Shown here piece after piece: positions 4,399-5,805 of a stretch of DNA of 64,000 nucleotides; within the stretch, counting starts at the first letter, position 1; each line of letters starts with the position of its first letter. Location: NCBI RefSeq assembly GCF_030282845.1, contig NZ_JASTWE010000005.1:1-64000 (forward strand). Reading direction: 5' to 3'. Position numbers and translations under genes: made by a program. The stretch is from Pseudodesulfovibrio pelocollis. GTDB lineage: Bacteria; Desulfobacterota; Desulfovibrionia; Desulfovibrionales; Desulfovibrionaceae. The notes below the pieces were generated by a model. It saw only the letters and a program-made list of their open reading frames with translations, ran no database searches and was not told the origin of the DNA.

Positions 4399-4779
4399 AT
4401 GACCGACATCGCCACCATTCACACGGACAAGGCTCCGGCCGCCGTGGGCCCCTACTCGCAGGCAACCCGCACCGGGGACATGCTCTTCGTCTCCGGCCAG
4501 CTGGGCATCATCCCGGGCCAGGGGCTGGCCGAGGGATTCGAGGCCCAGACCCGTCAGGCCCTGGACAATCTCAAGGCCATCCTCGAAGCGGGCGGCTCCT
4601 CCCTAAGCCGCGTGCTGGCCGTGGACGTCTTCATCATGGACATGGCCCGCTTCGCGGACCTCAATGCCATCTATGCGCAATACTTCGGCGATCACAAGCC
4701 AGCCCGGGCGGCCATCCAGGTGGCCGGGCTGCCCCTTGACGGGCTGGTGGAGTTCAAGTGCATCGCCCTGGCCAAGTAG
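4399..4779 (+). CDS. ridA: RidA family reactive enamine/imine deaminase
   Basis: A 126-residue RidA (YjgF/YER057c/UK114) protein of normal length. Family hallmarks are visible: AVGPYSQA near the N-terminus, FVSGQLG, and a C-terminal block with the catalytic-type Arg (PARAAIQVAGLPLDGLVEFKCIAL). RidA hydrolyses 2-aminoacrylate and similar imines formed by PLP enzymes, protecting branched-chain amino acid synthesis and other PLP-dependent steps. A GGGAGACACC site precedes the ATG. It is probably cotranscribed with the Gate-domain gene. Confidence 0.93.
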   Translation: MTDIATIHTDKAPAAVGPYSQATRTGDMLFVSGQLGIIPGQGLAEGFEAQTRQALDNLKAILEAGGSSLSRVLAVDVFIMDMARFADLNAIYAQYFGDHKPARAAIQVAGLPLDGLVEFKCIALAK

Positions 4780-4798: not shown

Positions 4799-4826
4799 TT
4801 GACACCGCCAACCATGGTCCGATAAG
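4799..4826 (+). promoter_or_regulatory. Promoter of the Phe leader and ADH synthase gene
   Basis: A perfect -35 TTGACA (4799-4804), 16-base spacer, and GATAAG (4821-4826; 4 of 6 to TATAAT). Predicted transcription start is near 4833, only about three bases before the leader-peptide ATG at 4836. If right, the leader mRNA would be nearly leaderless and the AAGCAGG before the ATG would not be transcribed. Mapping is by eye. Confidence 0.5.
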
Positions 4827-4835
4827 CAGGAACCC

Positions 4836-4910
4836 ATGACACGCACCACCGCCCGTTTCTTTTTCTTTAGCTTTTTTTACAGGAACGCCTGCGGTCTTGG
4901 TGTGCGCTAA
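4836..4910 (+). CDS. Phenylalanine-rich attenuator leader peptide
   Basis: A 24-residue open frame, ATG 4836 to TAA 4908-4910. It reads MTRTTAR, then FFFFSFFY (six Phe and one Tyr within eight codons, 4857-4880), then RNACGLGVR. Such a run is far outside chance and resembles the leaders PheL and PheM of enterobacteria. The peptide itself has no expected function; its translation senses charged tRNA-Phe (and perhaps tRNA-Tyr). The codon run ends six bases before attenuator segment 2, the arrangement needed for a stalled ribosome to free segment 2. It is too short to be found by ordinary gene callers. Confidence 0.88.
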   Translation: MTRTTARFFFFSFFYRNACGLGVR

Positions 4911-4975
4911 CGTCTGACGAGAAGTATCAGCAACCAAAGAGGCCGCGGGCAAAGTCCGCGGCCTCTTTCTTTTCA
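4842..4975 (+). promoter_or_regulatory. Transcription attenuator responding to phenylalanine
   Basis: Four mutually exclusive RNA segments can be read. Helix 1:2: 4842-4852 pairs with 4891-4895 plus 4899-4904 (three-base bulge). Helix 2:3 (antiterminator): GCCTGCGGTCTT at 4887-4898 pairs with GAGGCCGCGGGC at 4939-4950, 12 continuous pairs including three G-U. Helix 3:4 (terminator): AAAGAGGCCGCGG at 4936-4948 pairs perfectly with 4956-4968, followed by TTTCTTTT. Ribosome stalling on the Phe codons (4857-4880) would block segment 1 and favour 2:3, allowing read-through into the ADH synthase gene at 5014. Plentiful Phe would favour 3:4 and stop transcription. Confidence 0.85.
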
Positions 4976-5013
4976 GGCCGCGCCAGCGACCAAAAACCCC
5001 AAAGGAGAGCGTC

Positions 5014-5805
5014 ATGCACCTGGGAAAAGCCATTCGCATGGAACGGATCATGAACCGCAACAACGGCCGCACCATCGTGGTGCCGCTGGACCACGGCGTG
5101 ACCGTCGGCCCCATCTACGGGCTGGTGGACCTGCGCGAAACCGTCAACCTCGTGGCCGAGGGCGGGGCCAACGCCATGCTCATGCACAAGGGCATTCCCC
5201 GCTGCTCGCACCGGGCTGGCGGCAAGGACATCGGCCTGATCATCCACCTCTCGGCCTCCACATCGCTCTCGCCCTTTCCCAACGCCAAGACCATCGTGGG
5301 CACGGTCACCGACGCCATCAAGCTCGGCGCGGACGCGGTGTCGGTCCACGTCAACCTGGGCGACGAGGCCGAGCCGCAGATGCTGGCCGACCTCGGCAGA
5401 CTCTGCTCCGAGGCCAATGAATGGGGGATGCCGGTGCTGGCCATGATGTACGCGCGCGGCCCCAAGATCACCGACGAGTACGACCCCAGCGTGGTCGCCC
5501 ACTGCGCCCGGGTGGGCGTGGAGCTGGGCGCGGACATCGTCAAGGTCAACTACACCGGCGACATCGAATCCTTCTCCCGAGTGGTGGACGGCTGTTGCGT
5601 CCCGGTGGTCATCGCGGGCGGCCCCAAGCTCGAAAGCGAGCGCGACCTCGTCCAGATGGTCCACGACTCCATCCGCGCGGGCGGGGCCGGCCTCTCGGTG
5701 GGCCGCAACATCTTCCAGCACGAAAACCCGGCCAAGATCGTGGCCGCCCTGCACAAGGTCGTCCACGAGGACTGGGATGTGGACTCGGCCATGGCCCTGT
5801 TGTAG
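5014..5805 (+). CDS. 2-amino-3,7-dideoxy-D-threo-hept-6-ulosonate (ADH) synthase
   Basis: A 263-residue class I aldolase of the archaeal FBA/ADH-synthase family. D26 (in PLDHG), Y146 (MMYARG) and K177 (DIVKVNY, the Schiff-base lysine) have the spacing of the Asp, Tyr and Lys known from the Methanocaldococcus enzyme. ADH synthase joins a 6-deoxy-5-ketofructose phosphate with aspartate semialdehyde to make the precursor that dehydroquinate synthase II converts to 3-dehydroquinate, replacing the DAHP route. A fructose-bisphosphate aldolase role is the alternative, but the Phe attenuator in front strongly favours aromatic amino acid synthesis. An AAAGGAG precedes the ATG. No dehydroquinate synthase II is in the window; the next gene is on the other strand. 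Confidence 0.85.

Follow-up and report, generated by a model that had tools for sequence, protein, structure and literature searches.

We find that a stand-alone ADH synthase gene of Pseudodesulfovibrio pelocollis is preceded by the sequence parts of a phenylalanine (Phe) attenuator: a short leader frame with a run of Phe codons, an intrinsic terminator and a competing antiterminator. These parts are conserved within the genus, the terminator and antiterminator covary, and across the taxonomic family the codon content of such leaders matches the context of the genes behind them. Judging from sequence comparison, we put the probability that ribosome-mediated transcription attenuation by Phe controls this gene at roughly 0.88.

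A probable Phe attenuator upstream of an ADH synthase gene

The window, the whole 64,000-nucleotide stretch of DNA analyzed, contains the following features (window positions).

4799–4804, + strand: TTGACA, -35-like box, position conserved in relatives
4821–4826, + strand: GATAAG, -10-like box, predicted transcription start at about 4832–4836
4836–4910, + strand: leader peptide ORF MTRTTARFFFFSFFYRNACGLGVR, ATG at 4836, stop codon at 4908–4910, 24 codons, read from the sequence
4842–4852, + strand: 5' arm of the protector helix, partner 4891–4905, covariation weak
4857–4880, + strand: control codons F F F F S F F Y, a Phe-rich run being likewise present in each of the 33 orthologous leaders
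4887–4898, + strand: 5' arm of the antiterminator, inside the codons for ACGL
4891–4905, + strand: 3' arm of the protector helix, overlapping the antiterminator 5' arm
4936–4968, + strand: intrinsic terminator hairpin, arms 4936–4948 and 4956–4968, 13 Watson-Crick pairs
4939–4950, + strand: 3' arm of the antiterminator, common to the terminator 5' arm
4966–4973, + strand: T-rich tail TTTCTTTT, read from the sequence
5003–5007, + strand: AGGAG, Shine-Dalgarno (SD) sequence of the ADH synthase gene, read from the sequence
5014–5805, + strand: ADH synthase (2-amino-3,7-dideoxy-D-threo-hept-6-ulosonate synthase), stand-alone, TIGR01949
5814–6122, - strand: Hpt-domain ORF, the next gene

The pathway formed by ADH synthase and dehydroquinate synthase II is best known from archaea, and the archaeal-type identity that a preliminary description had assigned to the gene from the letters alone is borne out by its score of 406.2 bits against TIGR01949 (curated cutoff 299.45). 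Against the class I FBP aldolase model NF040816 it reaches 216.5 bits, below the cutoff of 430. Dehydroquinate synthase II, the partner enzyme of the route, is encoded in a same-genus relative (L038). The upstream neighbor is a Rid-family gene on the same strand that ends at 4779, 156 nt before the hairpin. ADH synthase genes occur in every one of the 36 same-genus genomes searched, and 33 of these carry an orthologue of the window gene (82–100% identity); the three without one (G024, G027 and G029) are genomes of 81–87% completeness.

The Phe-rich leader is conserved

Direct reading confirmed the 24-codon leader with FFFFSFFY that had been claimed at the outset. On both strands of the 64-kb window it is the sole ATG-started ORF of such aromatic density (8–45 codons, at least six F/Y/W within nine codons, ATG start), and it is followed by a terminator-like hairpin. 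In 60 random 64-kb sequences built from the dinucleotide steps of the window, there was one such ORF in total and none with a terminator. The Phe-rich short frame also held up in close relatives, the comparison on which the preliminary description had staked its claim: a Phe-rich leader precedes the window-gene orthologue in 33 of 33 cases from the 36 genomes, including L035, whose FFCAFIF was missed by the script's FFF rule and recognized by eye.

The closing Tyr of FFFFSFFY would suit a main signal of Tyr or general aromatic shortage in place of Phe. However, Tyr is missing from several orthologous leaders (e.g. L011, L014 and L034) whereas Phe codons are present in all, and we hold this option to be highly improbable. 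The peptide end RNACGLGV is well conserved among the orthologous leaders (the C-terminal half of L032 is divergent), a point in favor of the Phe-rich ORF encoding a functional small peptide, membrane-bound or trans-acting, with the hairpin under some other signal; trans-acting leader peptides do exist. But the conserved end coincides with the antiterminator 5' arm, and this overlap explains its conservation at the RNA level. The N-terminus and the length of the leader vary among orthologues and the codon make-up shifts with gene context, so that a small functional peptide is, in our estimate, very unlikely, and we continue with attenuation by Phe.

Terminator and antiterminator covary

The perfect 13-bp terminator with its T tract proved correct at 4936–4948 and 4956–4968, and one G-U and one C-G pair extend the stem to 15 pairs. 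The 12-bp antiterminator described earlier, 4887–4898 with 4939–4950, likewise stands, with 12 possible pairs of which three are G-U. Folded as a whole, the 151-nt RNA reaches -58.5 kcal/mol, whereas 200 shuffles average -40.4 (z -4.8); it is thus 4.8 standard deviations more stable.

In the alignment of the 33 leaders, 90.1% of terminator cells (15 pairs) and 90.3% of antiterminator cells are paired. Five terminator pairs and 17 terminator cells are changed on both sides, values matched by 2 and 0 of 500 shuffles, respectively; the count of further pair types was not above shuffles in these leaders (484 of 500 as high). For the antiterminator, six pairs and nine cells are changed on both sides, matched by 0 and 0 of 500 shuffles, and one pair, at columns 80–118, is broken in 18 of the 33 leaders. 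Cell counts of this kind overstate the number of independent events, since the sequences share descent. The preliminary description had looked to relatives for covarying helices, and these are found for the terminator and antiterminator. Its protector helix, 4842–4852 with about 4891–4905, fared less well: the pairing is possible (88.9% of cells in the 33 leaders), but with two pairs changed on both sides its covariation is weak and not clearly above shuffles (119 of 500 as high). RNAalifold, applied to alignment A1, chose a small local stem and not the protector, and a simple terminator scan of the window did not list the hairpin at 4936–4968.

We also folded the RNA at intermediate lengths. 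In nascent RNA reaching to 4951, the probability of the antiterminator is about 1 when the free stretch begins at 4885 or further upstream, 0.5 when it begins at 4891 and 0 from 4897 on; with no ribosome present, the antiterminator is preferred over the protector. The isolated antiterminator and terminator regions are equally stable (-30.8 and -28.0 kcal/mol). In the finished RNA at equilibrium the terminator wins at all five ribosome positions folded, and the switch must therefore be kinetic and decided during transcription. Classical attenuators choose their fold in the same way.

From these parts we infer the following sequence of events. Transcription would start at 4836, or a few bases upstream, and a ribosome would begin the leader ORF, probably without a Shine-Dalgarno sequence. 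With Phe-tRNA charged, the ribosome would pass FFFFSFFY to the stop codon and cover 4887–4905, so that no antiterminator could form, the 4936–4968 hairpin would fold and RNA polymerase would halt near 4973. Under Phe shortage, the ribosome would stall on the Phe codons, break the protector and leave 4887–4898 free to pair with the emerging 4939–4950, which would pre-empt the terminator and allow ADH synthase to be made. If the ribosome is assumed to cover about 13 nt past the A site, a stall at the first or middle Phe codons would permit the antiterminator, a stall at the last Phe codons would permit it in part, and a ribosome at the stop codon would exclude it.

A putative promoter at nearly fixed distance and a probable leaderless start

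Comparison of relatives, and not the sigma-70 promoter scan, which found no site between 4650 and 5950, is the basis of our promoter reading. Among the 33 orthologous leaders, 28 have TTGAC at -36/-37 relative to the leader ATG (one with an extra copy at -42), as do 25 of the 27 operon-type leaders of the genus; the remaining seven leaders of these two kinds have it between -39 and -45. In a wider set, it falls between -35 and -38 in 51 of 69 leaders. With a usual spacer, this position would place the transcript start within a few bases of the leader ATG. SD-like 4-mers precede the leader in only 2 of the 33 orthologous and 0 of the 27 operon-type cases, as compared with an SD 4-mer before the ADH synthase gene in 33 of 33 orthologues, and in the wider set they precede 18 of 69 leaders and 61 of 69 genes. 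The window leader is one of the two exceptions, and its AGGA (4828–4831) lies upstream of the predicted start. The leader is thus probably translated from a leaderless or nearly leaderless transcript without a transcribed ribosome-binding site. The literature searched held nothing useful on transcription starts in Desulfovibrio.

The location of the Rid-family gene, on the same strand and a short way upstream, invites the reading that the hairpin merely terminates that gene and that the Phe-rich ORF is incidental. Against this stand the Phe-rich leader found before every orthologue, the nearly fixed distance of the TTGAC box, the covariation of the antiterminator, and similar leaders before ADH synthases of other genera and before a symporter gene elsewhere in the P. 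pelocollis genome. We judge a plain Rid-gene terminator to be extremely improbable and retain Phe attenuation as the explanation of the hairpin.

Three ADH synthases, two of them with different leaders

The P. pelocollis genome encodes three ADH synthases (100, 71 and 65% identity): the window copy with its Phe leader, a type B copy at the head of an operon with an F/Y/W leader, and a type C copy without a leader. Codons for Phe, Tyr and Trp are all present in the P. pelocollis type B leader, MNSTTPLANSFTVFYFGYWYSRARGLGRGVL; about 1 kb past the gene, the contig runs out. In L038, from the same genus, the genes behind type B are those for dehydroquinate synthase II and prephenate dehydratase (pheA), aroA, a tyrA-like gene and trpE, G, D, C and F; for tyrA, trpE, trpC and trpF, the score with the best model falls short of its curated cutoff. 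An F/Y/W-type leader was present in all 27 type B copies examined (35 listed), and likewise in a 28th, L310. In the part of the report available to us, ten genes of D. hydrothermalis, from aldolase to trpF, are jointly down at high pressure (PMC4162548); this fits a single transcript and is no test of attenuation.

No convincing leader was found in the 12 type C copies examined of 33 listed, and type C is perhaps an unregulated or protein-regulated ADH synthase. One of the 12, L068, does carry a short ORF containing FYLFF, together with a weak hairpin. The upstream regions of L005, L066, L067 and L069–L075 share a conserved GA(G/C)TGTATTATG motif, perhaps a promoter, and have no attenuator.

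Codon content follows gene context across the family

We extended the comparison to the taxonomic family. Of the 149 genomes and 44 genera sampled there, 140 and 41, respectively, have ADH synthase. Eighty regions were taken among the best matches listed, so that genera with weak matches only are under-represented, and these regions, one Desulfothermus locus and 16 genus representatives are the sources of a table of 102 genes; L225 (contig end) and L083, L084, L086 and L087 (duplicate records) were dropped. A gene was classed as operon-leading if a dehydroquinate synthase match lay behind it in the fetched stretch, a rule by which short contigs such as L163 could be misfiled.

Among the matches listed, an aromatic-rich leader precedes all 53 operon-leading copies, and in 52 of them its core combines F, Y and W (the exception is L085). 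Stand-alone copies have such a leader in 30 of 43 cases: 19 are Phe-type, eight Tyr-type and two mixed F/Y, and W occurs in the core of one of the 30 (L209, doubtful), while five Tyr-type leaders have Trp outside the core. The association of W with context has a Fisher p of 5e-20 among these matches, a value inflated by related rows. By the rule used, 13 listed stand-alone copies lack a leader; five of these are type C; a terminator is present in L186, and in L204 together with a weaker FFF leader. A hairpin and T-rich tail follow the stop codon in 73 of 73 leader rows scripted from the matches listed, of which four are repeats and L212 is weak. None of the six second genes of tandem pairs among these matches has a leader of its own; in L167, L168, L172, L179, L180 and L196, tandem ADH synthases lie behind a single F/Y/W leader. 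Tyr-run leaders (YYYYY and similar) with terminators precede the stand-alone ADH synthases of L176, L198, L207, L226, L228, L229 and L230, apparently the Tyr counterparts of the window attenuator. The window attenuator would then be one of several similar devices, itself tuned to Phe, while its sisters respond to Tyr or to Phe, Tyr and Trp together.

In the ADH synthase tree, a 14-row clade that includes the window gene is entirely Phe-type (support 99/97). Further Phe-type copies fall in a second group of L182, L202, L212 and L232 with L204 (92/91), and L234 stands singly. Monophyly of all 19 Phe-type rows, which include the long branch L199, was rejected (AU p 0.0003). As the Phe-type genes do not form one clade, codons were retuned, or leaders or genes exchanged, more than once.

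Beyond the family, a short upstream ORF with at least six aromatics in nine codons was found at 20 of 79 ADH synthase loci (L148 was left out of 80). Twelve of these are L077–L088, mostly with Desulfovibrionales titles and including Desulfonema magnum (L088, GTG start); others are L090 (GTG start), L099 (Syntrophaceae) and L156 (doubtful). Five loci have leaders like MIRFFSAFYYFYYWYH: L100, L102 and L108 from Desulfoluna, and L101 and L112 from Desulfobacterales or Desulfobacteraceae MAGs. The leader before ADH synthase at these same five loci also resembles MIRFFSAFYYFYYWYHIGVPRH. A covariance model of the 33 orthologous leaders (R1) scored L088, L090 and L099 at 34.7, 18.3 and 30.6 bits, respectively, and gave no match in L100 and L102, the two loci of the MIRFFSAFYYFYYWYH type tried. 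Run family-wide with stricter filters, R1 matched 32 of 119 genomes; direct reading shows leaders to be commoner, so R1 is poorly suited to picking up those of the Tyr and mixed types.

Relation to known attenuators

The nearest published parallel that we found is the aroR-aroF attenuator of Corynebacterium glutamicum, a bacterium of a different phylum, reportedly described by Neshat et al. in 2014. According to the portions of two sources available to us (PMC11802643, PMC4046766), its leader carries Phe and Tyr codons and responds to limitation of Phe and not of Tyr. As far as these portions go, what it shares with our system is that Phe and Tyr codons lie in a leader peptide placed ahead of a gene for the first committed aromatic step; but aroF encodes a DAHP synthase of the ordinary shikimate route whereas the gene here is an ADH synthase, and one leader (FYF) is described there, in contrast to the sister leaders with different codons seen here.

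The enterobacterial pheA and pheST attenuators form mutually exclusive hairpins. They resemble the window leader in having Phe codons and in relying on Phe-tRNA charging (pheL and pheST, in the part of PMC11802643 consulted). They control prephenate dehydratase or Phe-tRNA synthetase, whereas the candidate here controls the first step, and the corresponding Rfam model, RF01859 (Phe_leader), rejects the window RNA (21.5 bits with the full model, E 0.49, against a gathering threshold of 55 bits). No Rfam family reached its threshold in the window RNA or in eight other loci with such leaders. E. coli AroG, AroF and AroH are parallel first-step isozymes, each answering to a different aromatic amino acid and also subject to feedback. 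Our isozymes appear to be split in a similar manner, through RNA leaders with different control codons, whereas E. coli uses repressor proteins; the consulted part of PMC11802643 places aroF and aroH under TyrR/TrpR control.

The preliminary description knew of no such mechanism for the ADH-synthase route, and this stands for the open literature (apart from subscription papers, supplements and regulon databases): we found no report there of attenuation acting on ADH synthase, or on the aromatic genes of Desulfovibrio relatives. The sections consulted of Rodionov 2004 (PMC545781), Naville 2010 (PMC2965389), Seliverstov 2005 (PMC1262725) and Price 2018 (PMC5764234) hold nothing on such leaders. 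The working principle is classical; new, as far as the literature searched goes, are the pathway and the occurrence of several like leaders among which the amino acid specificities are divided. The division of labor among isozymes appears to be written in the leader codons, so that the specificity of each could be read from sequence, and the leaders would supply a regulatory logic for the ADH synthase and dehydroquinate synthase II pathway. They also form a natural series in which one RNA device has seemingly been retuned between amino acids.

A probable second Phe attenuator and a candidate Phe symporter

At E < 1e-3, R1 found three places in the P. pelocollis genome: the window, the type B leader (31.9 bits, E 6e-4) and C1:53541–53380, a second Phe attenuator. 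Neither this attenuator, nor the sister leaders with other codon sets, nor the published C. glutamicum leader figured in the preliminary description.

C1:53380–53541 (L247 4881–5042), - strand: second Phe attenuator, R1 83.3 bits, E 8e-16

Its parts are TTGACA at -36, the leader MNSHHNRFGFFFFFGFRFFRSASGLGVCE and a terminator. Behind it come genes for a 'symporter small accessory protein' (NF045580) and then for a 535-aa sodium:solute symporter (PF00474) that falls below every specific NCBIfam cutoff. R1 matches of this kind occur in 30 other same-genus genomes, of which 20 were fetched. Counting P. pelocollis, the symporter lies behind the leader in 20 of 21 loci; a script detected the leader in 17 of the 21, and those of L287, L290, L292 and L295 were recognized by eye. 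A Phe leader is paired with the same symporter (66–69% identity) at six loci in two further genera. From the codons of the leader, we predict that the symporter probably imports Phe.

We think it rather likely that a set of related leaderless attenuators governs both supply through the ADH synthase route and Phe uptake in the family. Duplicated ADH synthases would have divided labor by control codons (Phe only, Tyr-rich, or Phe, Tyr and Trp), tuning to Phe would have arisen more than once, and the same device would name the substrate of an uncharacterized symporter.

Weak R1 matches in C39 (twice), C35, C34, C13 and C51 (E 0.01–0.7) were dropped; the four that were read (one in C39 and those in C35, C13 and C51) resemble ordinary terminators. 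A weak match on the reverse strand of the window terminator was dropped as well.

The 21st locus (L299/L309, 81–1547, in the single genome G035) has a Phe-type leader and terminator before a phenylacetate-CoA ligase-like gene, which scores 641.5 bits against a cutoff of 646.3. The small protein encoded beside it has no NCBIfam match and looks ACT-like. The locus might serve Phe synthesis from phenylacetate and not phenylacetate degradation.
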